Origin: Asterochloris sp. CNOR1
Taxonomy: Eukaryota; Chlorophyta; Trebouxiophyceae; Trebouxiales; Trebouxiaceae
Length of the DNA: 64,000 bases
NCBI GenBank assembly: GCA_963969365.1
Contig: OZ017762.1
Coordinates: 186,001 to 250,000, forward strand
Direction: 5' to 3'
The number at the start of each line of letters is the position of its first letter. Position 1 is the first letter of the stretch. The position numbers and the translations under genes are program-made. Below are positions 5,300 through 63,800 of the stretch, in pieces. The notes beneath the pieces are model-generated. The model worked only from the letters and a program-made list of their open reading frames with translations, was not told where the DNA came from and searched no databases.

Positions 5300-8200
5300 A
5301 TGGCTGTGGCGATGGACACCTCGGGCACTGATGGGTAAGCTGCAGCAGCAGCTTGCCACCAGATCAGACATCTATTGGCTGCTGCACTGCTGAGCAGGCA
5401 GCTGCATATGTTGCTGTGGAGCTGCCATGCACGCTGCTGATGCTCGCTGCATCGGCACTGCCAGGCAGCAGACAGACTGGCACACATGCACTGCACCAGC
5501 CTGAGCACTTGTCAGCTCGCACCAGACTCAGGTGATATGCTGCGCTCCGTGCACAATGATTTGTCGTGCGTCATGACCACATCAGAGCAGCTGCGCATGA
5601 GGACACCAGCTCAGGGCTGCAGGCAGCAGCTGGCACTCTCTGTTTGCCACCAGAGATGCCATTGGAAGAGCACAAGGCTGCTGTGCTATGCTGCAGGCCG
5701 CATGCAACTGTCCTGTGTTGCCGCAGCAGCAGCAGGCTACTTGCCAGCTCTGAGAGTACACAGTGTCGCTGTCTCCTGCAGGCCCTTGCACCATCTGACA
5801 GCAGCAGGCCACTGGCCAGATCCAAGCTTAGACAGTGCTGTGCTGGTGTCCCACGCAACTGCAGCTGGCTGCCTGTCAAATCTCAGCTTACATTGCTTGC
5901 TGTCACATGCAGGCCCATGCAGCAGCTGGATGAGGACCTTCACAGCAGGCAGCTAGCAGTATATGGCAGGGACACCATGCAGCGCCTGCAGCAGGCGTCA
6001 GTGCTGGTCATTGGAGCTCGTGGCCTTGGCATCGAGATCTGTGAGCCCCATGTGGAACAAGAGCTTTGAGGCAGCAGCCTCTGCAAGAGCTTCCAGCAAT
6101 ATTCTGCCCGACTTCTGTGTAAAGGACTTGCCACTGAAGGAGCCAGAAGCCAGCATGGCCGTTCCCCCTGGCTGCCTGTTTCTTTGCTATGTTGCTGCTT
6201 TCCTGGACCCAGACTCAGGGCTGGCCTACGTCAGCCATTACAGTGCCCTGGTTGTCACATGGCAGCCTGTTGTGGCTGGCATCTTCAGCTGGCCAGGGTG
6301 AGAGCCAGGGGCAATGGCTGCAACCAGCCAGCAGATGCACGTGCATGCACTCAGCTAGCAGGTACACGCCTTGCTGGAGCCCCTTGCATGCTGCCGTGGA
6401 GTAATGTATGCATTGCTAATGCTTCTTGTTCCTGGTCTGTCCTGCAGCCAAGAATGTGGTCCTTGCTGGCGTGAGGTCGCTGACCCTGCACGACGACCAG
6501 CCAGTTACGTGGGCAGACCTGAGCGCTCAGTTCGACCTGACAGAGGCCAACCTGGGGCAGAACCGGGCAGAGGCCTCCAAGAGCCACCTGCAGGAGCTGA
6601 ACACAGCTGTGGCCGTGACTGCTTCTCAGGAGCCGCTGACGGAGGCCGTCCTCAGCCATTTCCAGGCACAGCTTCTGCTCATGCAGGCTGTGGGCCTGCT
6701 GCCTTCAACTGCATTGGCTGGGCAGACGCTGCCTAGCTTGAGTAGCATGTGGTGGATGGTTTGGAGGGTCATAGGCTGCTTGCTTTTCCAGTGTTCATGT
6801 ACTCACCACAAGTGCATGGTCATTCATTGAGGTGCGGCCTTGCTGACTGGGTAATCTGGGAAGCAGCAACTGCTGCACAGCTGTGGGTTGCTGCACAAAC
6901 GCAATGCAGAATGCAAGCAGAGTGGCGCCTGGCCCTCTCTTGGCCAGCCGTGTGAATGCACTGCGCCTGGATGTGGTGGTGTGCATGCCACAGCTGGCAC
7001 TGAACAAAGCCGAGCCATCAGGGTTGCTCAATGCGCAAAGGCTGTCATCCCTTCACAAATGTGGGCCTTGCTGCAGGTGGTAGTGTGCACAGAGCTGGCC
7101 CTGAACAAGGCTGTGGACATTGATGACTTCTGCCACCGCAATGCGATTGGCTTCATCAAGGCAGACACATACGGCGTCTTTGCCCAGGTCTTCTGCGACT
7201 TTGGGGATGACTTTATAGTTCACGATGTCAATGGTGAGCCAGCAGCACGGCGTGCTTGGGCCCAGCCCTGCAAGGTGCTGCTGTGCTGCTGCCCCACTTG
7301 TCTGGGCAATAAATAAGCACGCAGTGTTCAGTCAGTGGCCTGGTGCTCTTCAGGCTGCCAGACAGCTTGGCAGCCACAACCAGGCGCTGAGCAGGCACAC
7401 ATATGCTGCAGCACCTCCCTGACTCAGTCGCCAGTGGCCGCCTAGCAGTCTGCACTTCCTGTGAATTGCTCCTTCATGTGCATGCTGATGGTGTTGAAAG
7501 CTGAGATGGCGCCTTGCAATGGTGCAGGGGAGCAGCCCACAACTGCCATCATTGCTTCCATCACGCCTGGCAACCCCACGCTGGTGACGTGTGTAGACGA
7601 TGAGAGGCTGGAGCTTGAGGTGGGCATGCTGACCCATTTCAAATATTCAGTATGTTGGGTCAAGAGCTATTGACGGTGACTCGGCGGGGAGCATGCCCTG
7701 AAGTTGCAGTTGAGGAGCAGGCTGGCAGAATAGTCTCTCCGCTCTTGAGCTGGGTGTCATGCTGCTCAAGTCCCTACTGGCCTTGCTCACGTCCTTCTGT
7801 TTCCTGGCTGTGGCTGCCTTTTGGGCAGCTCTGTGGCCTTCCCGTTCACGTGATGTCTGAAAGTGCATCTCACATGTTCCAGGTCCTTGGGCATAGTGCT
7901 TTGCAGTCACCTTTGCTGCTGGTCCGGTGGCCATGAGTTGGGACGTGATTTTTTATCAGAGTTATGCAGCAGCCTGGCTGGCTGCGTTGCTCCTATGCTG
8001 CATTGCTGGCTGCAGCAGTCTCCAATTCACCTCAGAAGCTGGAGCATTCCACAAAATTTGCGGACCTTTTGTTGAGTTGAGGCGTGCGGGTCTGGCTTGC
8101 AGGCAAGACAAGGTCTGAGTGTGTGCACAGCCCCAAACCTGGAGGGTCCATGGCAGAGGACAGCTCTACATGCTGTCCCAAGCGCTGCAGTCTCATAATG

Positions 8201-11200
8201 TTGAAAACATCTGTGTACAGATTTGATCCTATGATGATATGAGCCTGCTTCAGCTGAGCGTGGCTCAGGGTGGCGCGCAGGAAGACATGCTTTCCTGCTG
8301 CAGGATGGAATGTTTGTCACCTTCAGCGAGGTGGAGGGCATGGCAGAGCTGAATGATGGCAAGCCTCGTAAAGTGCAGAATGTCAAGGTAGGAGCACTGC
8401 TGCACACTTTGAAAGTGATGCATGCTGAAGGGGGCTGCCAGCAGGAACAGCTGCTTGTCAGCTTGCGAGCGGAGACCACGCTGAAGGTTTCATGAGGCTC
8501 TGCATGATGTGTCTCTGATTTGCGGGCGTTTATAAGGTTTTGTGTGAGAGTGTGAACAAACGGCATCCTTCCACATGCAGGGCGATAAGGTGCTCTAATG
8601 TGTGGGCCTTGCAGGGCTTACCACTTCATTTCCAAGGCCACAGCGCTCAGCTTTGAAGCTTGCAACAGGGGCAGCACTGTGCAGAGGCCAACCCCCAAAT
8701 GGCTTCATCTTGCTTTGTCTCTTATGCAGCTTGAGTCTCACTCCTTCAGAACTGATGCCGACACCACCAGCTATGAGCCTGACAACAGAGGCAGAGTTGT
8801 GGCAGACAGCAAGCACCCCAGGCAGCTGACTCTTTGCTTTGATGTGTGCTGCAGGTCAAGGCCCACTCCTTTGAAATTGATGCTGACACCACCAGCTACG
8901 ACCCTTACAGGAGGGGCGGCATTGTGGCAGAGGCCAAGCAGCCCAAGAAGATCAACTTTAAGCCGCTGCGCGATGCACTGGCAGACCCTGGTGAATTCTT
9001 GTTCAGTGACTTTTCCAAGCTGGAGCGCTCAGCCACGCTGCACGTGGCGTTCCAGGCGTTGGAGGCCTTCAGGGTGAGCTTTGCAGGGTCAAGCTCTGTG
9101 TGGCAAATTTTGGCTGCCTGAAAGTCGGTGCTGTTTGGTGGCCAGTTCTGCCAGCCAGAGCTGTCTGCCTGTAAACTCACAAGGCCTTCCAGGCTGTTGG
9201 GTTTGAGGGTCAGCTTTGTGGGGTTTATCTTTTGGGCTATGAATGACCTCTGTAGGATTCTGGGATGGAAACGCTTTATCCTCAAGCTAGAGCACCCAGC
9301 TAGGCTACATGTTCCCGATTAGGGGGGCTGGTAGGATCACTGTGCCAGCTCGCTCCCTCTAGGCAGCCATGCTGCGGGTGGTGTTTGAAGCTCTGGAGGC
9401 TTGCAGGCCGATCTTTGCTGTATTCCTTCTCGCTGCGCGCCAGCAAGCTCACGACAAGCAACGTGCAAGACAAGCAGGCAGCCTGTCCCAGCACCACAAT
9501 GCTCAGGACACAGCCTCAAGGGTGGCACACCAGCAGCTGCCCCTTTGATTTGATTCAAATTTGAGATACTGACTGCCCTGCAGGCCAAGGCTCGTCACTC
9601 TCAACGTGAGAAGGCAGCTGCCATGGTGGCTCACCAGCAGCCCCATTTTTGGATTGCTCGCACAGCTCAGTGTTGTACCCATGTCCCTGCAGAACAAGCA
9701 TGGGCGCCTGCCGCGGCCACACAATGCTGAAGAGGCAGCAGCCCTCTTGTCAGTAGCCAAGGAGCTGGCTCAGCAGGCCTCTGTGCAGCTGGAGGAGCCG
9801 GTGGTGGAGCAACTGGCCTACACAGCCGCTGGCCACCTGAACCCCATGGCGGCCATGATGGGTGGTATTGTGGGCCAGGTAGGCAAGTTGCCTGCACATG
9901 CGACTAGAGAGCCTTCATCAGCAAAGTTGAGCGCTTGCCTGGGAGCAGTTATAGCTAAAGAATGCGCGCAGCTTGCACGAGAGACACACAGCTAGGCCGC
10001 ATGGGTTACATGAGTTTGCGTTACACAAGGCAGCATCAATCTCTGGATCGGCTGCATGATACCCTGCAAACTCCTGCAGACACCTCATTGGTCTCCATGC
10101 GGCTGCAGGAAGTGATGAAGGCTGTCAGTGGGAAGTTCCACCCCATCCATCAGTGGTTCTACTTTGACTCAGCGGAGTCGCTGCCTGAGATCAAGCCAGG
10201 GTCTCTGGATGTCGCACCCAGGGTAAGTATATGACTTTCTCAACCAGTGTGAGCATTGCAGAGAGTTGCTGCCTGGGGCCATGCCTGGGTTTTTTCCTGG
10301 AAGCACCCAGATTGACCAGGAAGGATCGGTGATTCAAATCCAGTGTGAGCCTTGCACAAATCCACTGCTTGGAGCCAAGCAATGCTTTCCAAAAACTGCA
10401 CACAGAGTTGGCATGGCAGCCCCTTGTCAGCTGATTGGCCACTGCCAGCTGACAAGTTTGGATGCTAAGCCTTGGTTCCTGGGAGTTTGTCAGACTTGGG
10501 CCACTACTTGGCAGGGGGCCCTCTCTTGAGAACATTGCAGACAGTTGCCAGCCTTCTGCCCAGGAGCGCCCATCGTTTGCGATTATTCCCCCCGCAAACA
10601 GAGGTGCAAGGTGCTGTGCAGGACAGTACTGCTGCTGCACAGCTGTGCTTAGTCAAGTGCCCTGCTGGGCAGCAGAGCAGCCGGTGTCACAGCCACAGGT
10701 GGCACTGTGGGCTGGCTGCAAGTGGCAGACCTCATAAGGTGTTCCTGTGTGAGGCATTACTGTTGCTGCGCGTCTGTGCTCAGTTGCTGCCCTGCTGTGC
10801 TGCGGAACAGCCGCTGTGACGACCAGGCTGAGGCTGGGGCCTGCCCCTGCAAAGACCTCATGGGGTTCCCGTGTAGAGATTCACTGCTGCTGCACATTAT
10901 GATTCAATAGACAGCTTCATACTTTGCTGCAGAACATCCGGTATGACGGTCAGGCTGGCGTCGTGGGCTGGCAGCTGCAGCAGCAGCTTGCAGACCTCAA
11001 GGTGTTCCTGGTAGGGGCAGGCGCTCTGGGCTGCGAGTTCCTCAAGAACTTTGCGCTGATGGGCATTGGCACGGGGCCCAAGGGGCAGGTGAGGCTCTGT
11101 GAAACCTGGGCAGCTTGTGGCTTCTGGGCTCTGCTTGAGGCAGCTAGGTAGGCGTGGCGCACATGAGCTTTGAGGTTGACACGGGGTTTGGCTGACAACA

Positions 11201-14200
11201 TATGCTGCAGCTGGCAAGCTTTGTCTGCTTTGCTATGGGACAGGTCCCCTGCTGACCTCAAGTGGTGCATCGTCAAGAGTTGCCTGGAGAGTTCCACGAC
11301 TTGCCTTCCTGCATACCTTCCTGCCTGTTGCAGATCATTGTGACAGATGATGACGTGATCGAGAAGAGCAATCTGAGCCGTCAGTTCCTTTTCCGAGACT
11401 GGAATATTGGCCAGTAGGTGTTGGAGCTTCTGGGAATGCTGTCTCCTACTTTGCAGCAGCACCTGTGCTGGTTGGTGTGTGTTCTAGGTCCAGCTTTGCC
11501 TGTGCCTCGAGCAGCACAGCCGCCTTTGTTGCAGTTCAGGGTGCCTATAATGTTCCAGACCATCTCGACATGTACAGCAGTGCAGCTTGGGACAACACAA
11601 GCACCTGCCTCTCGATCATGCCTTGGGAAGTACAACCAGCTCAGCTCTACGGCTTGCTGCCCATGCCTGTTCTTGTCATGTGTCTGCCGCCTCAAGCCCC
11701 AGGTGGCAGCCATGGCCAACACGCAGATTGGGGCACCAAGAGCCAGCCCCTGGCGGTTCGTATGCACATGCACCAACAATGGAGTGTCATTTGCCTGCAG
11801 GTTCAAATCCGAGGTGGCAGCCACAGCCGCCACCCGCATCAACCCGGCCCTTAAGGTACGGTATCTGGCTTCTGAAACGAGCACAGCTGTTCAGACCTAC
11901 CTCATTCGTGTGAACTACCGGCACCCATCTGGCACCCTATTGGTTGCCTTTTCATGCCTGCATTGTGGGCGGGGCCCCTGCCTTTGCCACCGACAGCAGC
12001 ACCTGTTGCTGTGCACATCTTCTGGCTAAGCAGAAGAGTGCCGCCAGCACAACGGGACACCCTGTCCTGAGTTGTGTGCAGCAGGCAGGCCTGGGGCGGT
12101 CAAGGCCTACTGCTAGCTTAGGCTGTGAGGCCACCGATTACAGTCAGATCCACATGTGCAGAGCAAGGCATGCTGCTAGCTGTGACACCAGCCCTTAGAG
12201 TGATGTTTCTGTGTGCAGTTCAGGACCCACTGCTCGCTTAGAGGGCTTCAATCCTCATAGTGTCCGCTGTGCAGGTGAAGGCCCTCCAGTCTCGCGTGTC
12301 CCCCGACACAGAGTCTGAGTTTGACGACGCCTTCTGGAGCGGGCTGGACCTGGTGGTCAATGCTTTGGACAATGTGAGCTTGGACTGTAACTTCCTCGTG
12401 GTGACCGGTGCTGCCGCTTGCACTGTGTAGTGTGGCATGGTATTGCCTGCGTGTGGTGCTGCTGGAGCTGGATGCTAATGTCCTGGACATTGTCAGCCCC
12501 AGGTTGCAGACCTTGACCTTGTGTGCAGCGCCTGCAACACAGGCGTACTTGACCCAAATGCTGCCGACATGCCCTGCACAGAATGGTGGGCTGGCCGCAA
12601 GGTGTCTGCAGCCGTTGGTGGTCTTGCCTCAGCAAGATGCTGTCCTGCTGTCCTGTTATGCCTGTGATTGTACCAAAGGATGAAGGGAAGCTCCCTGAGC
12701 TGCTGTCAGGATCCAGGCTGCCGCTGCACAAAAGACGCCCCCAGGACGACTCGCGGCGTGACTGCCTGCGTTTGGTGCAGTCCGGGTGCAGCATCGCAGA
12801 ATGCGTGCTTACAAGGCCATCAGCTGCTGCTGCCGTGCCCTGAGCCCCGCCGGCCTGTCATTGCAGGTCACGGCTCGCCTGTATGTGGACTCACGCTGTG
12901 TCTACTTTGCAAAGCCTTTGCTGGAGTCTGGGACCCTAGGGCCCAAGTGCAACACGCAGGTGGTGCTGCCCCAGAAGACAGAGAACTATGGTGCGCTGCC
13001 AGGGCTGACTGCAAACAACGACAAACTTGGCTGTTTCACGTGCTTTTATGCCTGTAGGCATTGTGCTGCTGCCTGCAAAGCAGCCTTCTGGGCCCACAAG
13101 CCACTCTCAGTAAGGAGCTACGCAGGCGCTGGTGTGCAGCCTGGCAGCTTTGCTGCACAGCATTAAGGCATGAGAATCAAGGCCTTGTGTTTGCTCCTTG
13201 CTGAGCCCCAGCAGGCACCGCCTAACCTCTGTTGCTCCCTGCAGAGACCTCAAGGGAGCCTCCTGAGAGGCAGGCCAGCTTGAAGTATCAAGGCGGCTGT
13301 GTTCCAAGCAAGCACTGCCTGACTGTTGCTGCCCCAAGCAGTGCCTGACCTTTGCTGTTTCCTGTCCTGCAGGAGCCTCAAGGGACCCTCCTGAGAGGCA
13401 GGCGCCCATGTGCACCCTGCACTCCTTCCCCCACAACATCGACCACTGCCTGACCTTTGCGCGCTCAGAGTTTGAGGGCCTTCTGGAGAAGGCGCCTGCC
13501 GAGGCCAACGCTTTCCTGCTCAGCCCTGAGCAGTACCTGAATGGCATTCAGCAGGTGGGTCCAGGCTTTGCCAGCAAGGTGTTGCATGGAGCGCCTTGCC
13601 TCAAAGTGCACTGCTTCAGAAGGTGTTGGCCTGATGGTAAGATTGGCACCAAATCAGGCCAACAAACAACCTCTGTGGCCTGATAGCAGCGATCGAGTGC
13701 GATGTTATCCTGATTGACTGTCCTTTGCTGCAGGCCTCTGACGCCTCAGCCAGGGAGTCGATTGAAAAGGTGGTGGAGGTCCTCTGTGGGGAGCCAATGA
13801 GCAGCTTCAATGACTGTATCAAGTGGGCAGTGCTGCGCTTCCAGGTCAGGCCCTGGCACTGGTTTTGCTTTGGCTGGTCAGCTCAGCTTGGGCGGTGCCT
13901 GCCAGAGATAGCAGCTGGCCTCATGCAATGGGCAGTGCTAAAGCTTCCAGGTCTAGGGACCTTGTGCAATTTGGCATGCTTGCAAAATCTGTTTGAGTAG
14001 GGCTAGCGCCCATCTTGGTGCAACTCCAGCTGCAAATTTTCAGCCTTTGCTGGTCAATTCTCGTCTGTTTGAGCCTGTCCATTGGCAGCTCCAGTGATTG
14101 CATAAGTTGGCGGTGCTGCGCCTTTGGAGGACCTCTGGTACCTGATTTGGCATACCCCTGTCTGCCCTGTTTTGTGCTGCCTACTCTGTCCAGCTAGCAG

Positions 14201-17200
14201 CTCTTGGGGTTCATTTGAGGGCTGCCTATGCTTGGCCTGTGTCTGCCCACAGGCTGAGGATTGCCTCAAGCAGGCAGTGCTCTTGCCCCAGGCAAGGAGG
14301 CATGCGGGCTGGCTGTGCCTGACCCTGCTTGGTCTCTGGTGTGCTGTCCTGCTTTCGGCTCCTGCTAGCTTGGGTGCCACTCCAGCTATGATTTTAGCAC
14401 CTGCTGGTCTGGCCTGTGTCTAGGAGGACAGCAGCTAGCTTTTCCAGCTCCAGCCTGCTGTCCTGGAGGCGCAGATGGCCCCAGCTGGTGTACACCTCAA
14501 TTAGAGGCCACCACAGGCCATGTGACTGCAGTGCCTTTTGGCAGCCGGCCGCCTCGCACATAAGCATCATGGTCCACCCTGCACAGCCTTGTTGCTGCCA
14601 TCAAATGGGCTGCTGCCATGACAGGCACCAGTGCTGACATGAGCCATTTTCCTTGCAGGCTATTCTCAAGAAAAGCATTACTATTCATGGCTTGTCCACT
14701 GATATCACCTCGGAGTGTGCAGGCTATGTTGCATGACAGCAGACTCCAGCTGAATCAAAGCTTTTGTGAGGACCCCATGGTTGATGCATGACCCTTCCTG
14801 TTGGTATGTGCAGGCTCTTTTTAATGACAGAATAGCCCAGCTGGTGTACACCTTCCCAGAAGATGCCACCACTGCCAGCGGGACCCCCTTCTGGTCAGCG
14901 CCCAAGCGCTTCCCTACCCCCGTCAGCTTCACAGCCAGCGACGGCTCCCACGCTCGCGTGATCCAGGCGGCTGCCCTGCTTAAGGCTGAGGTGCATGGGC
15001 TGCCCCAGCCTGCCTGGGCGCTTGACCTGCAGCAGGTGAGGCCGTGCAGGCTTGCTTGTGATCCAGTCACATGGCGGAGGTGTGTTGCTCAAGTCTCAAA
15101 GCACAGCCTTGCTGCAGTCCTGTGGCTCCCCTTCTCTGTGCAGCACAACTCAGTTGTAAACAAACCTGTGCAGGTGGCAGAGGCGGCTGGGCAGGTGCCT
15201 GTGGCTGAGTTTCAGCCGCAGCAGGGGGTGCACATTGAGACAGACCCCACCAAGACGGACAAGGCGGGGTCAGGGGATGATGCCTCCATCATCGATGGCA
15301 TGGTGGCCCAGCTGAGGGTGAGACCCACAGCATCAGAGGCTGTCCATGTCCTCAAGGGTGCCAGGTGCTGGATACCAGCCTGAGGTCCTGGCTGCGTGGC
15401 ATTGGCCTGGCTGCACACCTTGGCTGCTGGCCATGCTGGATTTGAGACACAATGCTTCCACCCTCAATGGTATGGTGACCCAGCTAAGCGCAGGACCAGC
15501 AGGCTATAATGGCTGTTGTCATTCCATCAGGTGCTCTATGTGCAGCTCGTTGACCCACCTGTGTGAGGGTCACCGCCTTGCACACCTGATGCAAGTACGC
15601 TGGTCATGGAACCTGGGCCATCATCAAGGGCATCGCCGGCTGAGGGATGGCATGCTGGAATCCAGGTTCATCGTCGAGGGCATTGCCCAGCCCAGAGCCC
15701 GTCATGCCTAGAGCTGAATCCATCATGAAGGGCATTGCCCAGCTGAGGGCAAGTCTACACACGCATGGGGCTTTAGATTCCTCAAGGGCTGTCAGGCAGT
15801 GAATATGCAGCTTGACATCCTAGCGGTGGGTGGCAAACCTCCAGGTCAGAACATCTAACTCTTTTTCACATAGCCTTCCTAATCTGCAGGAGGCTCAGAG
15901 CAAGCTGCCCCAGGGGTACAAGTTGCACCCCATCACCTTTGAGAAGGATGTGGACAGCAACCATCACATGGATCTCATTGCTGGCTTTGCCAACATGCGG
16001 GCGCGTAACTACCGGATCCAGGAAGTAGACAAGCTCAAGGCCAAGCTCATCGCCGGGAAGATCATCCCAGCCATTGCGACGACCACAGCCATGGCCACAG
16101 GTGGGTGCTGAGGGGCACCACTTGGACAAGCACCAATGCCCCGATGGCTAAGATGGTGGCCACGATGGGGGTTCTGAAATTTGTCAAGACAGGCACCGGC
16201 CAAATGGTGCCGACCCTTTGACTGGCTTGGTGTCTCCCAGCTGCGTGCGGACCTTATGTTCCAGGAGCTGCTTGGGCCTATCCAGGACAAGCCACTGCAT
16301 GGGCACATCAGCTTGGTCCCACCCCTCTGAAAAAGAAGAGCTCAACATGTTCCTTGACCCTGTTGTTGTGCCCGAAGTTGAAGATGATTCAAGCCCTGCT
16401 CCAGGCGTCCTACACAGCCGCCTTTGCTGAAGCTCTGGCTGTCCAGCTTTTGCCAGCCCATTGACTTACAAAGGGCGCGTCTCCTGTGCAGGCATGGTGT
16501 GCCTTGAGCTGCTCAAGGTGGTTCAGGACAAGCCGCTGGAGGCGTACAGGAACAGCTTCGCTAACCTGGCGGTGCCAGTGTTTGCCATGGCCGAGCCCAT
16601 CCCGCCCAAGCAGTTCACCTTTGGCGACCTGAGCTGGACACTGTGGGACCGCTGGGTGCTGGAGGGGGACCTTACAGTGCAGCAAGTGCTGGACTGGTTT
16701 GTGGTGAGTCCCACTGTGCCGGAGGGGCAAGTCACGCTGGCCTTGACACTGGTGCTGGCTAGCGACTGTCCACGCTGACTTGGCCTCAGCGCGCCTTCAG
16801 CAGCTGCAAGGGACGGCGGCTCACAGGGAGCCAGCACAGCGTTATGATGCTGCTCGAAGGGTGCCGGGCCTGTGTATATGTTGCCCTGCCTCACTCAGGG
16901 GGACGGCAGCCCTGGCAGGCTCCTGTGTTGCCTGCCAGCCTCCCTTTATGACCATTGTGCGCCTGCCACTTGCAACAGCAGCTGCGGCACCCTGCTGAGG
17001 ATCTGGCTGCCTTGAGCCTGCCTGTGCCTCATCCGAGCAGCCTGGCTGCTCAGGGGGTGGGGCAGATGTGAGATGATGCTGTTTGCTGCCTCTGCTCAGA
17101 CGGAGTGCCCAGGCATGCAGTAGGTGGGGCTGCCTCCTCCTGCACAACTGGCGGCTTCAGTCTTGGTTGTATGCTTCCATTGGGCGCCTGCTGCGCTCGT

Positions 17201-17464
17201 GCCTCCCAATGAATTCAGGGCAACATCACTGTGCAGGCAAAGGGCCTGGAGGCCTACAGCATTTCCTGTGGGCAGAGCCTGCTGTACAACTCCATCTTCC
17301 CCAAGCACAAGGACCGTCTGCAGAAGAAGATGTCCACCCTAGTGGCAGATGTTGCCAAGCTGACTGTTCCCTCCAACCGCCAACACTTTGATGTGGTGGT
17401 GGCCTGTGAAGGGCCAGATGGGGATGATGTTGATGTCCCCCTGTGTTCCATCAAGTTCAGATGA
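5300..17464 (+). CDS. UBA1: Ubiquitin-activating enzyme E1
   Basis: Activates ubiquitin with ATP and passes it to E2 enzymes through a thioester; nucleus and cytosol. 21 exons: 5300-5334, 5913-6040, 6448-6665, 7077-7233, 7528-7619, 8304-8387, 8855-9073, 9693-9878, 10109-10222, 10933-11088, 11334-11413, 11801-11855, 12275-12373, 12867-12990, 13373-13554, 13734-13844, 14814-15035, 15174-15317, 15890-16100, 16492-16703, 17237-17464. All phases agree and give 1,018 aa, close to plant and animal E1s. Seen: [11 protein letters not shown] near the start, a degenerate first nucleotide fold, the active [11 protein letters not shown] fold (exon 10), [19 protein letters not shown] (exon 11), and the catalytic Cys in [15 protein letters not shown] (codon 13411-13413, Cys596). 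The C-terminal ubiquitin-fold domain ends with HFDVVVACE. Exon 1 is only 12 codons with start context agaaaATGGC. Intron 3 has a GC-type donor (CAG/GCACAG). Many introns hold copies of neighbouring exon ends. Confidence 0.96.
6968..7015 (+). repeat. Degenerate copy of UBA1 exon 4 start
   Basis: gtggtggtgtgc and agctggcactgaacaaag repeat the start of exon 4 (7077 on: gtggtagtgtgc, agctggccctgaacaagg). The shared word agctgg lies 101 bp upstream of its exon counterpart. It sits in intron 3. Confidence 0.85.
8739..8822 (+). repeat. Gapless degenerate copy of UBA1 exon 7 start
   Basis: 84 bases align without gaps to exon 7 bases 8864-8947, 125 bp downstream, with 65 of 84 positions identical by hand count. 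The copy is preceded by its own AG (ttatgcag). Translated in register it still reads like the exon ([13 protein letters not shown] against [13 protein letters not shown]). It lies in intron 6. Confidence 0.95.
10688..10880 (+). repeat. Two degenerate copies of UBA1 exon 10 start
   Basis: Intron 9 contains two successive versions of the exon 10 stretch 10943-11016: one about 10688-10755 and one about 10816-10880. The shared word gacctca falls at 10728, 10854 and 10993, spacings of 126 and 139 bp. Both copies keep a ggtgttcct or gggttccc match to the exon. Confidence 0.85.
11685..11745 (+). repeat. Degenerate copy of UBA1 exon 12
   Basis: Inside intron 11, a stretch reading caggtggcagccatggcca matches exon 12 (gaggtggcagccacagccg), and the surrounding translation ([12 protein letters not shown]) parallels the exon ([12 protein letters not shown]). 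Confidence 0.75.
13241..13280 (+). repeat. Near-identical copy of the start of the UBA1 catalytic-Cys exon
   Basis: In intron 14, cctcaagggagcctcctgag... (13248 on) matches exon 15 from 13376 with 26 of 27 bases identical, 128 bp apart, and is preceded by CTGCAG in both cases. Similarity ends before the Cys codon. This is one of the least decayed copies in the window. Confidence 0.92.
13921..14295 (+). repeat. Series of copies of UBA1 exon 16 end with donor
   Basis: The exon 16 end (aagtgggcagtgctgcgcttccag/gtcagg at 13821-13850) recurs in intron 16 as gggcagtgctaaagcttccaggtctagg (donor-like GT at 13951, 106 bp away), then more faintly near 14098-14130 and 14270-14295. The intron is 969 bp, the longest in the gene. 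Confidence 0.7.
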
Positions 17465-17755
17465 TCCTCTCCCGCCAGATAACGTAGCTTAGCAGGTTTC
17501 ATTGCATCAGTGGCCCGAATGAAGCCAAATTGCTGCTTGTGAATTTTAGTATCCCTTCAAAGAGCCCTCTGGCTCCGAGACAGATTCATTCCCAGTAGAC
17601 GAGGCCAGAATCTCTGAACGAGACAAGCAACTTGGGCAGGCCCATCTCCTCTGTGTTGTTGTGACGCGGGGGAGAAAATCCGCATTGAGGAGCAGAACAG
17701 AGCTGCATGCTCTGAAGGATGCTGCAGTCACCAGCTGGCTGCTTGGTGTGGCCCA

Positions 17756-18171
17756 ATGCACACCAATTCAACCAATCCTCAGGAGGTTTGTTTTTGGCAC
17801 TGTTGCGTGAAGCCCTACCTGCCTTGCGTGTTGGGCTGCATGCAAGCACTGACACATGTGCCGCTGTGCTTTGCAGACCGAAATGGTGGACCAGTACAAG
17901 TTAGATGGGGTAGGAGTGGAGGCGGACGTGGTTGCCAGCAATGCAGGAGCACCCACCTCTAAGAACGTCAGCTGGCTGGTGAGTTAGCCTGCCCAGCCCT
18001 GCTCTGACGTAAGCAGACAGATATTGCATCTCGTGAGTCGCTGTCCTGCAGGACTTGCATGGCCAGGACCTTTACATGGTCCGCGAATTTGAGCCCTCGG
18101 ACAACGAAGATGACGCCTCTGAGTCTGAGGAGTTGCAACATCACAGACAAGGCTGCTGCACCATCATGTAA
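17756..18171 (+). CDS. Small acidic protein with C-terminal CaaX box
   Basis: Not recognised. Three exons (17756-17785, 17877-17978, 18052-18171) keep phase and give 83 aa. The start ATG is the only one that opens in frame directly before a usable donor, but a longer 5' end cannot be excluded. The C-terminal half has a VREFEPSDNEDD acidic patch, then a basic linker and the tail GCCTIM. CTIM fits the CaaX consensus, and the neighbouring Cys could be palmitoylated, so membrane attachment by a prenyl group is the likely fate (inference). It lies 291 bp downstream of UBA1 on the same strand and is tail-to-tail with TRIP13. Plant genomes encode small prenylated proteins of unknown role; whether this is one needs a search. 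Confidence 0.6.
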
Positions 18172-18459
18172 GAGCAGCGACATTCCTGACGCCGTTACCT
18201 GTTTCCCCTCTCTGTGTTTATGTTTTTCAACCCCATGTTTCCCTGAGTGTGACATCTGACCGTGCCTGAAGTGAGCCCGCTGTGGTCCTCAGCAGCGTAT
18301 AGCACTGCTGCTGTCAAAGTGAATGAAGTCACTGAACAGCCTTTGTTTGAGGGGGACCCTATTGCATGCTGTCTTCAACACGCCAACCAGCAGCTGTGCA
18401 CAGTCAAGTGGAGTTTGCTGTGAGGCCCTGCCCTTAAGTCTCCAGTTCAGAGTTTCACT

Positions 18460-24395: not shown

Positions 24396-24711
24396 GAGAC
24401 TGTCTCTGACTGGGCAGGGCCTTTGCTACATCAGCCATCGCCAGAGGCTTATGGCGGGGGCAGGGCCGCCTAAGCTGTCGAAGAGAATTTTCATGGCACT
24501 CTTCCGCCTCATGTGCGGCTATATCGACAAAGTGCAAGCAACGTGCCAGCCCCTCCGGCAGCTCGAAGGTTTGACCAGTGTTGACCTGCTTAGCAGTCTT
24601 GCCCCTGCCCTTGTCTAAGGGCAGGACACAAGTCGTCTGATATGTTATATTACAGAGGGGATCAGCTGCAGCATCACACCAAGAGAGGGGTTTTGGTGGG
24701 CAGTCGATCAG
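24396..24711. other. TRIP13 upstream / profilin downstream spacer
   Basis: No gene seen. It holds the profilin 3' region and presumably the TRIP13 promoter, about 316 bp in all. Confidence 0.5.
24650..24654 (-). terminator. TGTAA poly(A)-signal-like element of profilin
   Basis: TGTAA on the minus strand lies 58 nt past the profilin stop codon. TGTAA is the usual polyadenylation signal in chlorophyte algae. Confidence 0.5.
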
Positions 24712-35291: not shown

Positions 35292-35463
35292 CGATGCATG
35301 AGATATGGTTTGCTTGTCAGTAAAAGCTCTTCCACCAGCATTACTCAAGCAATTGAAGAACTTCATCTCGGCTTGTCATTTCGCCTTTCCCCCGAGGGGT
35401 CACAGCAACGCGCAACTTAAATCACGCTTCGAGCTGCCCGGTGCAGGGCAGATCCAGCTCAGT

Positions 35464-48996: not shown

Positions 48997-49367
48997 CATC
49001 TGCCAAGCATCTCCCCTCCCCCCATAGATTTTGCAGGCGCAGGCCAGAATTGAAGCGCTTTCTGTGTGCGTCCATTTCATGCATAAAGATTGAGCAGCAA
49101 CGATACGTTGACTGCATCATATGAAATGATCAACTATTCTCTGTAAGTCAAGGCAGGCCCGTTGTAGCTATGCCTACTGGCAGGTCGAAAAGCATGCCAT
49201 AAAGGGGTAAGACTGCCAACAATCCCAAGCAGCATTTGGGAATGTTCAGGCAGCACGCAGCGCCCACTCCAAAGTGGCTGCTGTAGGGTAATGTTCATCT
49301 CAGCTCAGCATTCCACAGACAGCACGCTCTGCCATCCACATTGCCTGCCGCTGGCCCCTCGAACGTG
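48997..49367. other. Tail-to-tail spacer between Tudor-SN and MGAT1
   Basis: 371 bp holding both 3' ends. A TGTAA at 49142-49146 on the plus strand, about 145 nt past the Tudor-SN stop, may be its poly(A) signal. Nothing else recognised. Confidence 0.5.
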
Positions 49368-52300: not shown

Positions 52301-54796
52301 GGGGCATCATATTCCCTGCTTGAGATGGAGTTATGGTGGTTGCATGTCTCAACCACCTGCCCGGCTCGCTCACCTTGTTGCTGGAAGCACTCAAACAGCT
52401 GCCCAGAGTTGTACTGGCGGAGGCTGCTGCTTGGCTGGCATCTTGAACACATGTCACCTCGACATTGGGGACACAAGTGCTGCATGCACTCCAACATCTG
52501 CCCAGCCACTGAAAAGTCTGACTCCATTATGGCATGTTTCTGGTGCTGCAAACAAACGGTCCAGTTGAGGCCAGCTCACCTCCACAACAACAACATTGGG
52601 GTACTGGAAGCAGTCAAGCAGCTGCCTGAGGATGAACTGGTAGTGGTTGGCGATGCGGTAGTAGACAAGGGACTCCCGGCGGTTGCGCTTGATGGGCTCT
52701 ACCAGCTCTATGTGCTGAAGGTACCTGCAGAAGGCCAGCACTTGTTCCAGGCGTCAAATCTGTAAGTGCACTTGGATGTCTCTTGGCTCTGCTGTCCTCT
52801 GCAGGTACCTGCAGGTAAAGGGCAGTATGGTGGCAGATCCGTGATGTGCTTGCTTGGCTCCATGCCGCGCATACATGGGCTGCAGGGACTTCTGGAAGTG
52901 CCACCCTTCTGCAGGGGCCTGCAGGCCAAGAGTCAACTTGTGGTACCTGAGTTGACCTTACTGTCAGGGTGGGGGTGGGCACCACCAGCCCAGATGCTGC
53001 AGGCAGCAAATGACTTGAGGAACCGCAACCAGTCCTCTTGAACCTTAAGGTCTGGCCCAGTGTAGCCTGCTTTACACTTGCCCCAAGCCCTTGGCTTGTG
53101 TTGAGCTGAGTCTGTAGCGTCCAGCGTTGCTTCTCGCTACATTGTGGTTGAGGAGGCAGTGTGTCCTCAGGCAGCAGCGCCACGACAGTGACGCGAGCCC
53201 AGCCTGCTGCCTTGACACAGGCGCAGCTTGGACATGCACACATCAGCAAGCCCACATCTACGCCACTGAACTCAGCCAGCTCTGATTGGGGTGTGCACTC
53301 TGTCCTCGGCAACAGAGCCCTTGACATGAATCAAGGGCAGTCTAAAATTCCTCTCGTCAGCCAGCAGGCTGGGCCCACCTCACAGCAGGGCCGAAGGACT
53401 TCGCCAGCCCCGCCACAGCTGAATCGCTGCCGTCCTGGGAAATAAAAAGGGGGAACTTGGTCCTGCAGGGCAGCAGGGGGCTGCTCTCTTCAGCATCAGG
53501 TGATGCTGCCATGCACAGCAGCACCTCTGCCAAGCAGCCAGCAGGCAAATGTGTTTTGGCTTAGTTTTTGACAAAGCCAGAGCCCAAACACAGAGTCAGA
53601 AACATGCTGCCCTGCCACTGTGTTTGGGAAGCCATACCCTGCAACACCGGACACCTGACTCATAGCACCAGCGCCTCTGCAGTCTGCAGTGAGGCCCTGT
53701 ACTCAACCCTGTTGGGGAATGGTGCCGGCTGTATACAGTACTAGATCTCCCTTCTTCACTGTGCAGCTGCCCCGCACAGTGCACACAGGCTGGTGAGGAA
53801 CCACTGTCAGAGCGTGCTACCAGTGATGCCCACAAAACACGACCACAACGGCACTCTCGGTGCCCCTCCTGCTGCACTGCATACAACGACAACCCTGCGC
53901 GGAGTGCAATATCATAACCTGCCCAGACTGCGCATTTCATATGGCCAGGAGACTGTCAAAAATCCCAAGATGTGCAATGTTTGATGTGCTCAGACTGGGC
54001 ATTCAATGTGGCCACGAGATAAACAGGAAGAATGACAAGCATTGCAGCCGCCTGGTGCCCCTTGGCGGAGTCCTGCATCCTGCACAGCAGCTGGGAGTCA
54101 CAGGGCAGGGGCTTGCCACAAAAGCTGTAGTCTGTCAGTGACGCGCAGTGCCCAAAACCCATGGAGTGCGGCAGGCGCACCCAACCTGTTTGCGGGGTCA
54201 CGCGACCAGCGCAGCAGGAGAGAGGCCATGGCTCGTTGGAGGTAGTCTGGCCTGTTGAACGCGACCATGACGACGGCAGCCACCACTCCTGAGGACTCCT
54301 GCTGATTGCTGACGCAGCCTGTGGCTTCATTCCCAGGCGGGAACACTGCCTGGTGGCCGCCAGTGTGTGCTCCCACTGCTGCATGAGTGCCGCTGGCGTT
54401 GATGCCTGCAGGGCAACAGCAGCACTGAGCTGTGGGGGGCCACAAGGAGGAATGCGGCTTGAGATGCTGAGGTGCACTGCAAGAACAAGCGTGGGGTGCA
54501 GCTGATCACTCACCCAGTGCAGCTTCAGCTTGTTGCAGGCTGGCATCTATGTGATCGAGCTGATGCTGAAGATGCTGCACATTTGCAGTGCCTGGCGGGT
54601 CCTCAGCTGGTCCATCAGCAGCTCTGTTCAGGAGACGGTACAGTGTCACCTAGCAGTGGCAGTGCAGTAATTCATCAACATGCATCTTGGAGGGCCCTGA
54701 AGTCAACCTTGCCAGCCGGATGGGCAACATCCAGCTCACCTGAAGCAAGAACACGATACAGGCTGCAGCAAGCAGCGCCAGGCCTCGAATCGTCAT
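49368..54796 (-). CDS. MGAT1: Alpha-1,3-mannosyl-glycoprotein 2-beta-N-acetylglucosaminyltransferase (GnT-I)
   Basis: Golgi enzyme that adds the first GlcNAc to Man5 N-glycans, opening the complex-glycan route. 11 exons, high to low: 54796-54740, 54649-54514, 54405-54186, 53462-53379, 52724-52580, 51935-51816, 51108-51023, 50931-50850, 50411-50236, 49877-49756, 49597-49368; 485 aa. The start gives a type II anchor (LALLAAACIVFLL) and then a Gln/His-rich stem. Seen: VVMVAFNRPDYLQRA, FPLFISQDGSD, YRIANHYQF, the metal-binding VVVVEDDMEFAVDF spanning exons 5-6 (EDD about 214-216), CISAWNDHG, LYRSDFFPGLGWM, YWDDWMR, RTYNFGQVG, IKLNEVDIDW and PRAGYHGVV, all in family order. The divergent RELCH gene starts 74 bp away. 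Introns carry exon-start copies. Confidence 0.95.
52795..52935 (-). repeat. Copies of the MGAT1 exon 5 acceptor and start
   Basis: On the minus strand the exon 5 junction ttctgcag/gtaccttcag recurs as ctctgcaggtacctgcagagg near 52800-52820 and more loosely as gcaggcccctgcagaaggg near 52908-52926. Confidence 0.7.
53090..53140 (+). mobile_element. Short fragment with the TGTAGC...GCTACA termini
   Basis: ttgtgttgagctgagtctgtagcgtccagcg resembles 46288-46318, and tgtagcgtcc is the left end of the element at 289. Here TGTAGC and GCTACA lie only 29 bp apart (53112-53140). No target duplication seen. It is in MGAT1 intron 4. Confidence 0.45.
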
Positions 54797-54870
54797 GCAT
54801 TATGGAGTCAGATGCGCCTTGTGACATGAAGAAAAACCCTCTCCCCAGTTGACAGTCCTGATCTGGCCTC
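54797..54870. promoter_or_regulatory. 74-bp divergent promoter region, MGAT1 / RELCH
   Basis: The two start codons face away from each other across only 74 bp, so both 5' untranslated regions and core promoters must overlap here or lie inside the opposite gene, unless one gene has an unseen upstream non-coding exon. No TATA box is visible. Confidence 0.6.
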
Positions 54871-57800
54871 ATGGAGCCCCCAACTGCCAGACCTGGGCCT
54901 GCAGAGGACGCTGACATTGCCTCCATGGCATGCCAGTTCTTGATCTCCCAGAACTACCTGCTCAGTGCTTTCGAGCTCATGGTAGAGGCACAGGTGCAAT
55001 GCTGCAGCTCTCTGCTGTTTTTCTGACCAGCCAATGAACCCAATGCAGATTGCTGTGACATCAAACATCACACCGCTGCAGGAGAGTGGCAATGAGCAGC
55101 AGGTGGAGATGCTCTCACACTTCTTCTCCGATCGTACAAAGTTTCCACCAGAGAAGCTGGCAGAATTTGAGCTGGGGGATGGTGCGTAATGAAGGACAGT
55201 GTGAATTTTAGCAACTGTGTCTGTCTTGCTGTATTTTGCTGTGCGGCTCAATGTGTGGCAGGGCGGGCATGCTTTGCGCTTAGTGACCAGCACGAAAATC
55301 AACAATACAGGCTCTGTGATTGGTTGAGGTTGCGAGGCCACTGCATGATGTGATCTGATACCTGCTGCAAGTTCTGTGCCGCAGGGCAGCAACTGGTATT
55401 TGCTGATGCTCCTAGGGGAAGCTGGACTTCTGCTGAGTTGTGTGCTTTTCATGTGTGGACCTGTGCTTGCTTAGCTTGTGACACAGCCCCTCTGCCAACT
55501 TTTGCTTCCCCTGACCTCCTGGCTTGCCTGTCTGCAGCTGTGAGTGCTCAGAAGTTAGCGAAGGAACGTGAAGCGCAGCTCGGCGCCACACAGTATCAGC
55601 TGAGGGTGCTGCAGGAGGACATGACTGACATGCAGGTATGCTGAATCGTGCTTCGGTTGCCCTGCACTGCATGGAATAGCGTGGGGAGGTGAAGCTGTGC
55701 ACATTGCAGTTTCGGTAATGCAACAAGGCACGAAGTCGCCGGGCTTCTGCCCTACCTCTGCCTTTTATGTCTGCCTGCTAGGTGCATGGGGGTGCTATGA
55801 GGCCTGTGAGCCATCTTCCTGGCTGTTGCAGCAGGCTGAAGCTGGCAGGCCGATGTGATGCGATCCTGCTGGCCGTTGCCGCAGGCTGAAGGCGGCAGGC
55901 TAATGTGATGCAATTCTGAGGGCTGCTGCAGCAGGCTGAGGCCGGCAGGCCAATGTGCGTGCAGGCTCAGCAGGACAGCAGGGCAGGCACAGGCGCAGCC
56001 AGCCCTGCACAGACAGCAACTGGCGATGCTCAGCAGCTGCCCGCCTTTGGCCTGGGTCTGCAGGACGGCAGCGGACAGGCGCCACAGGGAAGCCAGGAAG
56101 CTGCAGCACTGCCAGCCAGGTGAGTTCCCACAAGTGCTTGAGACTGCCTGCTGGCGGGGCATGGGCAATTGTTCTGATTTGAGCATGAATAATATAGACG
56201 ATTGCCACTGGAATAACATAGACGATTGCCACTGGACAGGGGGCAGGCTGCAGCACTGCCAGCCATGTGAGTACACGTGTGTGCCTGCAATTGCCTGCTG
56301 ATGGGTTGTGGGTACTGAAATCATATTGAGCATGTAACACCTAGGCAATTGCCACTGGGCAGGGGGGAGGCTGCAGCACTGACAGGCTAGTGAGTTGCAC
56401 ACTGCACATGTTCCTGTGGCTGCTTGCTGATGGCGAGGGAGTTGCGCATGGTCATCGTACCTGGGCTCTAGCGTGGAACACCCCCTTGGAGACTGGTGTC
56501 TTGGTGCCTCCCAGACAAACAGCAGCTGTGTGTCCCTGTACTGCAGGGAGCTGGCCCAGCTACACTCCTCCATGCACGCCTACCTGGCGCGTGCTGGCTA
56601 CAAACTGACAGCCATGACATTTGCTGAGGAGGCTGGGTCCCATGTGGCAGGCGCAGCTCAGAATGGCACGCTTCTGAGCATGTTTCAGGGCTACCAGCAG
56701 TGGCAGGCGGCCATGCAGGAGGCAGAGGTGAGTCTATGGGGCAGCCCTGTTTGTGATGCGGCACGCTGCGACATCTGAGGCAAACATTTCTTGGGAGGCC
56801 TGCTGCTGTGGGAGATCAGATGGCAACGAGCACGCGGTCGGTGTAGAGGACAGGCTCTTTCCTTCAGCAGTGCTCAGCGCTGGAAGTTTTACAGGGCAAA
56901 ACAGGAGGCAGCCTTCTTTTCTGAGGAGGAGGGAGCCTAGTCCACAGGCATGAGGCTTGGAAGTGTACAATGATCACCAGCGCTGCCTGCAGGAGTGCCG
57001 AGCAGCTGCCCAGGAGCTGCAGGGGCAGTTGGAGGCAGCACAGCGCCAAGCAGATGACATGCAGGTGGGCAGGCATATGGACGCACCCGTCAATTGCTTG
57101 TGGCAGCAAGTCGAATGGCCATGGATCACTATTCGTGCGGCACCCTTGCGGCTGGGCTACCAGCCAGGTCACCCTACCGCTGCCTGTGGCAAAGGTCAGG
57201 CTGCCATCAGTCTCCTGCAGCGCCTCTTGTACATTTGGGAGCTTTCAGGCACAGCTCTGGCTGAATTCAGCACGCTGTCGTGTTGGCATTCTACTGTGTG
57301 TGGGACCAGGCAGCCAGCCGCCAGAACGCGCAGCACAGCTGATCTGAATGGATGTGGGGCCTGCAGTTTGGCTGGTACACAGCAACTCTGAGGTGCCTCA
57401 GGCTGCACATGGTTCACTGCAGGGGGTTGGTGGCAAAGCACATCCTGGCCTCAGACTGCTGCCACCAGGATGCACAACAGCCTGTGCTGTGCGGGTCTGC
57501 AGGCTGCCCTGGATGCTGCCAACAGCGACAGCGCCAGGCTGCGGTCTGAGACAGACATGCTGAGGCAGCAGGTGGAGTGGCAGCAGCAGCAGCTGCTGCA
57601 ACCGCTCCCCTCGCGCTCTGTGGAGAGCCAGAAGCAGGTGGGGTGGGCTGCAGGGTCCAGCCCTGCTGGGTGTTTGCAGTCTTGAGAGGTCAGCTCATGT
57701 AGAATGTCAATCAAAGGACACCCATTGCTATCAGTAAAGGTGGCGGGCCTCCACCTTCAGCAACCCTGCTGCTCTGGTCAGGCCACTGCTGTCAGTTCCC

Positions 57801-60800: not shown

Positions 60801-63800
60801 TACACTGCTAGACACGATCTGACCATCATCAAGCCAAGTCAAGCCTATATCAAAGTGCTGCGCTCTTATGGGTGCAGGTGTTGCTGCAGGAACAACGCAC
60901 TGATGCACATGTACCCTGTTAGGCTCAAGTCAACTTTCGTAAAGTCCTAAAGATAATGCTGTGACTCTGCAGGTCCAGGTGTTGTTGAGGCTATACACTG
61001 CCATGCTGCCCAGCTTCAGGAGTCATGCTCTACTTGCCAAGCCAGCATGGGTGCAGGGTGAGTCCCCCAGCTGCAGCGCTGCTGCTCTGCTGCATGGGCA
61101 GGTGGCTGGTCTTGCACTGTGGGCTGCAGGGCGAGCTGTACTGGATGGGCGACAGCGTAGTGCCTGGATGAAGTAGTCAGCTGCTCAGCTGACTACAGAG
61201 CAGCACGCACCACAGCTGATACCTGCCTGGACAGTGCTGCTCACCAGTCTACACATGCAAGCATAGCCAGTGCTGCCCTGGGTCATGGCAATACAGGTTG
61301 CTCCTGGGTGCCAGGCATGCTGCAGCAGAGATGCAACCCTGCCAGCACACCCCCCTGCCTTCGGCAGAAGACAACCCAATCTGACGCCTTGTGGCCGTTG
61401 CACGCCTGCACTTCTGGCAGTGCCCCCATGCTTTCTTATTCTGCATCACATCCCGTGAATGGCAGAACAGGTGGACCCGTACCTCCTGCCCACAATGCAC
61501 GGGGCTCACAGCGCGTCAGCCGTGCCCACCTGCAGGTGCTGATCAGACATCCCTGCCCCCAATCGGCCGTGCCCGCCTGCAGGTGCTGATCAGGCATCCC
61601 TGCAGGAGGCGTCCCTGGAAACTGCAAGCTCTGTGGGGAGTGGGAACCACTCACATGCCGAGGCGGCAGCCAAGCTGCAGCCTGATGTGCAAGGTGAGAC
61701 ACCAAAAGATGGTTAGTGTCAAGAAAGACCTGGACATCAAGACATCCATGGGTCTCGAACAAAGCAACGTGCAGTACCTGGCCCTCCCATGCTACCAGCC
61801 ACAGAAGTCTGCTGCACGGGCGAGGGCAGACACACAGCTGCAGGGCAGATATGCTCGTCATGATCCTCGAGGCAGTGCTGCACCACCCCACGTATGACCG
61901 AGTTGCATGGCGGCCAGTACCTGGTACTCATGCAGTCCTACAAGTACAGACAACCCTGGGCACAAGGGCTAGGGTTGTGTGGCCACTGCTGATTGCTTGC
62001 GAGGCAGCAGCAGAGCAGGCAACAAAGCCCAAAAGAGAACAGTTCAGGGGAATGAATGCTCCTCAGGAGCTGTTCAAGCTATGCACCAGTCTACCACTTG
62101 CTGCAGAGTGCTCTGCTATCCTGCAGGAAACATCAAGGTAAACGATGGTCAGCTGCAAGCCGTAGCAGCCCCTCGCACCGTCCCTCAAGGCTCTGAAGCC
62201 AGCTCTTACTTTGTTGTAATTGTTTGCTCTGCAGGCAGCAGCAGGGCAGGCAAATTGGCATCTCACTAAACAGGAACTGGATCGCAGGCAGGCAACAGCA
62301 CATCAGGGTTCTCAAGCTGTTCCTCGCTCGTTACTCAGTGGTGTTTGTACTGTTCTGTGATGAGTTGCCCTGCAGGGAGTCTGCAAGAAAGGCAGTGTGA
62401 CCCCTTCTGAGAGTATGCACCCCAGATGAGAGACACAGGTTTCAGGCATCCCATAGCCCCTAATGCTCTGCAGCAGTCCCCACTTAATGTATTGGCTCTG
62501 TTGCTCTGCAGGAAGCAGCAGGGCAGGCAGCATGGCACTTCATGAGGAAGGTCCAGGGCTGCAGGCAGTCCACAGCCCCTCAAGCTCTGCAGCGGTGTCC
62601 CAGTCGCCGTGGGAAGACCTGTCCCTATCAGATAGCATTGCCCCCCTGCAGGAGAGCAGCCATGCTGATCCGTTGCGACCCAGCAGCAGCGCAGGCAAGG
62701 TTCCTGCTCTCATGCGTGCGTCACATTGCCTGACGTGCTTGCTTGATACCAAAGGTGATGACCCATTGCCAGTGCTAGTTCATGTGCCCAGACTGGCAGA
62801 TCAGTTCAGCAAAACACGCTGCCTGTTTCCTGCACTGTGTTGCACGGTGGAGGGCAACAGTGTGAGCCACCGTTAGTATGTGTACCATTGCAAGGACTAT
62901 CCGCTCCTGTCTTGCCACTGCAGACCTGGCTGGCCAGGCATTGCCGGCAGGAGCCAGTGCTGCTAACAGCCAAGTGGACATGGAGGCCACCAGCGGCCGC
63001 AGCCGTGCAGAGGCGGATGCAGCTGCTGCCGTGCAGGCCTTTGCCTGCTGGGCTCACAACCCACCGCCAGAGCTACCCTGGGAGGCGGTCGATGACTTTG
63101 TGGTGCAGCACCTGCCACAGCTGCTGCGGGTGACCTGGATGATCCCACCCCACCAGGACATGGAAGCTCTCAGGTGCGTCCACTGCACAAGCCTGCCTCT
63201 GTTCAGATGCAGAGGTGCGGGCAGGTCAATTCTGAAGCTGAGCTTGAGATCAGCCATAGCATGGCATCGTATGGTGCCACAGTGTCCTGGGTGGTGTTGG
63301 ACAAGATTACACGGGGGCTTTGGGTGAAGTTTGCAGCGATGGTGGCTGGCTCGGACTTGGAGCCAGCTGGTGTGGTGGTCTCTCAAATGCTGCTAGTCGA
63401 AACATCAAAGCTCACAGGTGCTTTCGAAGCTACAGATACGTCTGGTGTGCAAATTGGTCTGGCATGCTGCAGCACCCATCTGGTGGCCTGCCTGGCGTGC
63501 CGTGCTGAGGGCATCCTCACCTGCTGCAAGGTGCCCACTGCGGCTGCCACAATCACCTGACTTTGAGGCTGGTGTGCATGGCTGCAGGCGCCGTCTGTGT
63601 GCCTCCTTGAAGGCCATCTGCACCTGCTTCGGGGTGCCCTTTGCAGCTGCTGTCGTCCAGCCGGTGGCCACAGCTGCAGCCGCCACACCCCTCAGCGTGC
63701 CCCAGCCAGTCACGCACCCCATCCTAGAGGAGGTGAGCTCTCCTTCTGGTGTGCTCAGAGTTTGTGGTATGTGTCTGCCATGACCCCTCCTGCCCTCCCC

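Follow-up and report, generated by a model that had tools for sequence, protein, structure and literature searches.

Introns in unrelated genes of the green alga Asterochloris sp. CNOR1 contain decayed copies of the ends of their own neighbouring exons, often together with the adjoining splice site. These copies were analysed in a window of 64,000 nucleotides (nt) of contig OZ017762.1 (C17 in our numbering) and in samples from the rest of the genome, which comprises 56.4 megabases in 21 contigs, 18 of them large. An earlier note on the window had described the copies and explained them by ongoing tandem duplication across splice junctions. The copies were found again, also on other chromosomes; the duplications, however, are apparently not ongoing for the most part. 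We consider it rather probable that the introns grew by local direct duplication, that splicing left the exon-edge copies inside them, and that most of this took place in a past episode of the lineage.

Gene structures are predictions of a gene model trained on the window and on 18 pieces of 10 kilobases (kb), taken from every large contig at one common position; the sample as a whole consists of 64 kb, 180 kb and short loci. In the edge test, the first or last 45 nt of an exon were aligned to the adjoining intron, and the score was compared with those of random introns of the same genome. As a mirror control, exon starts were aligned to the downstream intron and exon ends to the upstream one. 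The strongest figures rest on 62 homology-checked introns, 40 from the window and 22 from the Cpn60/TCP1 chaperonin family. For the window introns, exons with homologue support were picked by hand from the predicted ones; in intron 6677-7076 the donor is not certain, and the GnT-I exons are not all mapped to aligned stretches. The chaperonin introns were found via profile hits, with only the splice-site weights supplied by the gene model. The loci used contained 38 of 67 family hits and yielded 31 neighbouring exon pairs, of which 22 were accepted; the rest were left out for a profile gap (four), missing sequence (two), want of a good junction (one) or a gene split at a coordinate boundary (two). 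A further, high-confidence set comprises the 111 of 472 non-transposon predicted introns that passed a filter. The transposon loci L009, L014, L020 and L021 were dropped from this set, from the per-gene count and from the random introns of the checked-intron tests; they were kept in the edge test of 539 introns, the period density, the direct and inverted counts, the pair classes, the AGGT test and the identity simulation.

The 539 predicted introns include 450 that are long enough for the edge test. At p ≤ 0.004, the exon end was copied in the downstream intron at 33 of 376 edges and the exon start in the upstream intron at 27 of 386, while the mirror controls gave 2/251 for starts against downstream introns and 1/262 for ends against upstream introns. 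Outside the window the corresponding counts are 19/273 and 15/281, which shows that the copies are not confined to the window. The signal grows as the gene structure becomes better known. In the high-confidence set, copies were found in 19 of 74 introns on other chromosomes and in 14 of 37 in the window. Of the 40 checked window introns, 21 carry one edge or more at p ≤ 0.01, and 22 of the 80 edges in this set reach p ≤ 0.001 versus 2 of 70 mirror controls. The chaperonin-family introns, located on C1, C2, C4, C6, C8 and C14, carry a copy in 10 cases out of 22; here 10/44 edges and 0/44 controls reach p ≤ 0.001, with a single control (1/44) at p ≤ 0.01.

Altogether, an exon-edge copy is found in 31 of the 62 checked introns, that is, in half of them and not in nearly all. 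The earlier note spoke of nearly all genes; among predicted genes with at least three tested introns, 20 of 31 have at least one intron at p ≤ 0.0034, where about two would be expected by chance according to our reckoning. Seven genes were recognised in the window instead of the nine counted before, eight of which were said to carry copies. All five genes identified by homology do carry them: UBA1 and SND1 on the forward strand, and TRIP13/PCH2, profilin and GnT-I on the reverse strand. Thus, the statements that both strands and unrelated genes are involved hold, the chaperonin-family genes on six chromosomes included. The same is true of multiple copies, since 9 of 38 significant edges have at least two copies at p ≤ 0.02 each.

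It is extremely unlikely that chance, the shared splice consensus, base composition or gene-model error accounts for these counts. Such an explanation can draw on the fact that the gene models are predicted and not based on transcripts, and on several predicted UBA1 exons that have no counterpart in 11 homologues. The mirror controls are nevertheless low, the signal is stronger, not weaker, in the homology-checked sets, and introns that were shuffled yield 0.4 pairs at threshold 16 and none at 18 or 20.

The individual copies in the window, preceded by the span of UBA1, are the following:

5222..18302, + strand: predicted span of UBA1 (ubiquitin-activating enzyme E1) from the self-trained model, its exons compared with 11 homologues.
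8725..8825, + strand, UBA1: copy of the acceptor and exon start 8850-8950; period 125, 75% over 101 nt, p = 0.0005.
9364..9418, + strand, UBA1: copy of the exon end and donor 9030-9084; period 334, 75%, p = 0.0005.
9464..9514, + strand, UBA1: copy of the acceptor and exon start 9688-9739; period 224, 73%, p = 0.0005.
10628..10825, + strand, UBA1: two graded copies (10658 and 10788) of the acceptor and exon start near 10933; family D3.
11674..11722, + strand, UBA1: copy of the acceptor and exon start 11785-11833; period 111, 76%, p = 0.0005.
13238..13275, + strand, UBA1: copy of the acceptor and exon start 13366-13403; period 128, 89%, p = 0.0005.
14079..14202, + strand, UBA1: copy of the exon end and donor 13794-13916; period 284, 67% over 130 columns, p = 0.0005.
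16208..16314, + strand, UBA1: copy of the acceptor and exon start 16451-16558; period 241, 62%, p = 0.009.
19375..19464, - strand, TRIP13: copy of the exon end and donor 19575-19664; period 200, 72% over 92 columns, p = 0.0005.
19835..19865, - strand, TRIP13: copy of the acceptor and exon start 19742-19772; period 93, 87%, family D11; not significant in the 45-nt edge test (p = 0.63).
22885..22914, - strand, TRIP13: copy of the acceptor and exon start 22635-22664; period 250, 87% over 30 nt, p = 0.0005.
25846..25884, - strand, profilin: copy of the exon end 26076-26114; period 230, 85%, p = 0.0005.
42857..42911, + strand, SND1: copy of the acceptor and exon start 42972-43026; period 115, 91% in the ungapped core, p = 0.0005.
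43368..43459, + strand, SND1: copy of the acceptor and exon start 43640-43740; period 272, 69%, p = 0.0005.
45149..45255, + strand, SND1: near-abutting tandem copy of the acceptor and exon start 45266-45372; period 117, 107 nt aligned.
47325..47382, + strand, SND1: copy of the exon end 47133-47191; period 192, 75%, p = 0.007.
52381..52426, - strand, GnT-I: copy of the exon end 52604-52649; period 223, 74%, p = 0.0005.
55810..55957, + strand, last gene (gene model only): 50-nt tandem array reaching up to the predicted acceptor.

The two graded UBA1 copies form a triple array with the real site, which lies in 10915-10952; the spacings are 130 and 127, and the offsets are 257 and 127. The SND1 exon of the pair at 45266-45372 was checked against human SND1 (3bdl). 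The predicted UBA1 exon 9363-9521 consists of two copies and has no counterpart among the 11 homologues. A comparable case was observed on the reverse strand of locus L022, in a presumably RuvBL2-like gene: an exon end is repeated twice downstream in decayed form (about 5401, 5613 and 5941), and the gene model called the copies exons.

The mismatch rates of the copies at the three codon positions are 0.209, 0.193 and 0.232 (38 edges), and because they are nearly flat, the copies are not coding. This makes it very unlikely that the copies have a function as alternative exons or alternative splice sites of the kind seen in tandem exon duplication. Some of them do retain a TGCAG acceptor unaltered, and stretches of reading frame survive. 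Against such a function, most copies cover only part of an exon, and the predicted exon 9363-9521 made up of two of them lacks a counterpart in the homologues. The splice AG is retained in 10 of the 16 copies that cover it, which by our comparison is about the neutral expectation. Two processes that could act on the copies were considered and rejected. Selection against decoy splice sites would have purged them, and no clear purge is seen either in AG or in the donor dinucleotide (GT or GC kept in 6 of 10 covering copies). Repeat-induced mutation would leave C>T or G>A changes dominant, and they are not dominant beyond CpG.

In the 62 checked introns, CpG is strongly depleted (observed/expected 0.31 in introns and 0.48 in exon edges), and TpG and CpA are in excess. 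Together with a CpG mismatch of 0.46 in the copies, this points to CpG methylation. Compared with the intron copies, exons appear to have changed far less at third codon positions since the copying (38 edges), which suggests either constrained silent sites or faster mutation of introns. Error-prone copying at birth is likewise suggested by the flat codon-position mismatch, for which slow exon evolution accounts equally well.

The arrangement of the copies argues for local direct duplication, often across a junction, as the earlier note had it. At distances of 60-300 nt, 180 direct and only 2 inverted pairs were counted, and the density of repeat pairs drops steeply past 300 nt. The 38 significant edges have periods of 88-356 nt with a median of 174 and identities of 62-88% in gapped alignments of 25-225 columns; in 22 of them the alignment spans the junction with at least 8 nt on each side. 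Some of the best-preserved pairs abut, such as 121 nt at period 119 (88%) in L015 and the 107 nt at period 117 in SND1.

From this we infer the following course of events. A stretch of DNA would be duplicated locally and in direct orientation, mostly in tandem, the copies now lying about 90-350 nt apart. If the duplication spanned an acceptor, it would produce the order tail-head-tail-head of intron and exon; with the last acceptor in use, the protein would stay unchanged and the first head would become intronic. Duplication across a donor would be the mirror case, in which the first donor is used. In both cases the inner copy, containing a piece of exon and a splice site, would become part of the intron and decay neutrally. 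Wholly intronic duplications occurred too, and they would fade sooner because both copies mutate, while the exon edge is nearly fixed on one side. Most legible events would belong to a past episode after the split from the sampled green algae. The underlying lesion may be end joining after offset nicks, or else slippage; tandem duplications were reportedly obtained after adjacent single-strand breaks by Schiml in 2016.

The copies in UBA1 can be dated relative to other algae. The closest relatives of its protein are those of trebouxiophyte green algae (66% Trebouxia, 65% Coccomyxa). At sites where the exon differs from Trebouxia, the copies of 12 edges agree with their own exon in 42 cases, with Trebouxia in 2 and with neither in 29. 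With seven more homologues, the copies side with their own exon in 35-42 cases and with the homologue in 2-5. Since the UBA1 copies match their own exon and not the relatives, they arose within the lineage, after its split from the eight sequenced relatives. A comparison of presence and absence between P450 paralogues was also tried and abandoned, as the P450 loci are too diverged.

The claim that duplication is ongoing is not supported. Most legible duplications are old, with a few young exceptions, because strong and highly identical pairs fall far below the expectation for a constant rate. Among intronic pairs only 4 of 59 are at least 90% identical, and among junction pairs 9 of 89, whereas the constant-rate simulation expects 23-27%. 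In the checked introns, 6 pairs with a score of at least 32 were seen versus 33.8 expected, and the log-likelihood is -43.1 at a constant rate versus 12.3 with free rates. Fast decay of CpG lowers early identity, but in our judgement it hardly explains a several-fold deficit. What speaks for tandem duplication continuing at a constant rate is a minority of well-preserved pairs in the wider predicted set: of its 199 clusters at period 40-600, 18 contain a core with 90% identity or more. Among these are pairs in L020 (99% over 108 nt; transposons occur at this locus too) and in L019 (91%), and the L015 pair retains its 88% over 121 nt. Nevertheless, we regard a constant rate up to the present as unlikely, and in the form of uniform tandem duplication it was ruled out by simulation, both by the junction share and by the deficit of strong pairs.

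The junction share itself requires closer consideration. At the working threshold, the pairs in the 62 checked introns are of the acceptor type in 19 cases, of the donor type in 13 and purely intronic in 13. Junction pairs are therefore 32 of 45 (0.71), whereas uniform placement at a constant rate predicts 0.31-0.36, and the expectation stays at 0.32-0.35 across indel settings. Part of the excess can be a matter of survival. In simulated decay, junction pairs fade more slowly than intronic ones, and old age raises the junction share because mostly exon-anchored pairs stay legible. Uniformly placed old events give 0.65 at t = 0.25-0.5 substitutions per site with an exon rate of 0.2, and 0.81 at t = 0.3-0.5 with an exon rate of 0.1; core length and score are also matched. 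For t = 0.2-0.4, a share of 0.45-0.52 would be expected, which the data exceed (P = 0.0003-0.007).

Several observations weigh against the proposed course of events. The ratio of aligned length to period has a median of 0.38 (35 edges), while 0.92-0.95 is expected for full-unit tandem duplication at matched exon identity; larger indels lower this expectation only partly, and old age does better, accounting for part of the difference. With free rates, uniform placement is strained by the amount of insertion that it needs: at t < 0.4 the inserted sequence would be 1.23 or 2.08 times as long as the introns are today (bootstrap ranges 0.19-2.06 and 1.22-2.58), and over all ages 3.2 or 7.4 times as long. 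An old burst with uniform placement agrees with the data only if very much sequence was inserted. Finally, two of the 70 mirror controls of the checked window introns are positive as well.

A different process, linked to transcription or splicing, might instead place short copies of exon ends preferentially in the adjoining intron; this would not be uniform tandem duplication. The high junction share, insensitive to indel settings and above expectation even at t = 0.2-0.4, and the shortness of the copies for their distance agree with it; we know of no mechanism of this kind. However, older uniform placement reaches the observed share and fits core length and score, and purely intronic pairs and abutting tandems exist, so that such directed copying seems to us doubtful, although worth keeping in mind. 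Probably, survivorship acts together with a real junction bias of about two-fold, which is not proven. A tentative possibility is that a past lineage-specific process copied exon ends and splice sites into adjoining introns preferentially, about 2-5 times over the intron interior, so that much intron sequence throughout the nuclear genome would represent fossils of the genome's own exons.

Returning to local duplication in a past episode, the periods of the pairs sum to 25% of intron length at the working threshold, 17% at the stricter and 38% at the looser one. Duplication may plausibly be the main source of intron length, although no more than 17-38% of that length is legible as such. Purely intronic pairs number 36 at period 40-160 and 22 at 160-400. 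Pairs wholly inside exons were counted 7 times versus 16.2 expected under random placement, and intergenic pairs 3 times versus 12.8, although there is too little true intergenic sequence to trust the latter figure.

Apart from transposons, little is documented, to our knowledge, about where intron sequence comes from. In half of the checked introns (31/62) one source, the neighbouring exon edge, can still be recognised, and how fast, in what sizes and when introns grew becomes measurable inside one genome. Gene finders are liable to call such copies exons, as happened at 9363-9521, and the copies provide natural decoy splice sites for studying the choice made by the spliceosome.

As for the remaining content of the window, the self-trained model predicted six gene spans; in the per-gene count, the gene at 27.7-36.1 kb is merged with SND1. 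Of the seven recognised genes, the two besides the five identified by homology (27.7-36.1 kb and 55.0-63.7 kb) are gene-model predictions and presumably resemble WDR90 and RELCH. The reverse-strand TRIP13 introns 23232-22661 and 19623-18823 begin with GCAAGC and are GC-AG introns. The 3' splice site of predicted introns is mostly TGCAG, stronger than plain CAG, a preference that self-training may sharpen. The gene-poor left end contains short tandem arrays:

2937-3042: array of 18/54 nt.
140-289: array of 15 nt.

At the same end, positions 1850-4750 are 71-74% similar to an element in L014 whose matching inverted arms of about 390 nt (7114-7502 and 9555-9943) suggest a DNA transposon. Loci L009, L014, L020 and L021 have other stretches in common at 88-99% identity.

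Several known systems can be compared with the copies described here. Tandem duplications are common among 10-1000 bp insertions in rice, for which patch-mediated repair of double-strand breaks was proposed (Vaughn and Bennetzen 2014, as cited in PMC7407515). They are alike in being short, local and direct, a common type of insertion in plants; the passages of PMC7407515 that deal with them report no exon-edge fossils in introns. In the potato RdRp gene (PMC4974935), a tandem duplication that takes in an intron's 3' end together with the first part of the following exon made a new intron. There too, a duplication crossing a junction turned an exonic piece intronic; that case, however, concerns one gene and one new intron, whereas here it is the existing introns of many unrelated genes that lengthen.

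Creation of introns by tandem duplication of AGGT, the model of Rogers (1989) as outlined in PMC4974935, with Drosophila cases given in PMC2891723, likewise combines a local direct duplication with intronisation of one copy. Its geometry, in which donor and acceptor copies are offset by the intron length, was found at 32 of 60 matches or more in 2 of 512 introns (expected 0.0), and one such intron, in the window, is an artefact that rests on a false 3-nt predicted exon. Since this geometry is essentially absent, what is seen here is growth of existing introns and not creation of new ones. In the open-licence literature, which was the scope of our search (subscription papers lay outside it), nothing was found that describes exon-edge copies as a feature of introns across a genome.

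Introners (PMC9860276), copies of an element spread over many genes, also change introns on a large scale in particular lineages, whereas the copies described here each match the exon beside them. An all-against-all BLASTn search (E ≤ 1e-8) for mutually similar introns of this kind over the 18 loci of 10 kb, eight P450 loci and the window returned 22 rows, all transposon-like, overlapping or paralogous by our reading. Finally, direct repeats are known at intron borders (Rogers and Bendich 2025, PMC11782384). They resemble the copies in being direct and near splice sites, but they measure 4-30 bp and sit at the borders or close to them, whereas those of Asterochloris extend over 25-225 alignment columns, are decayed and lie inside the intron.

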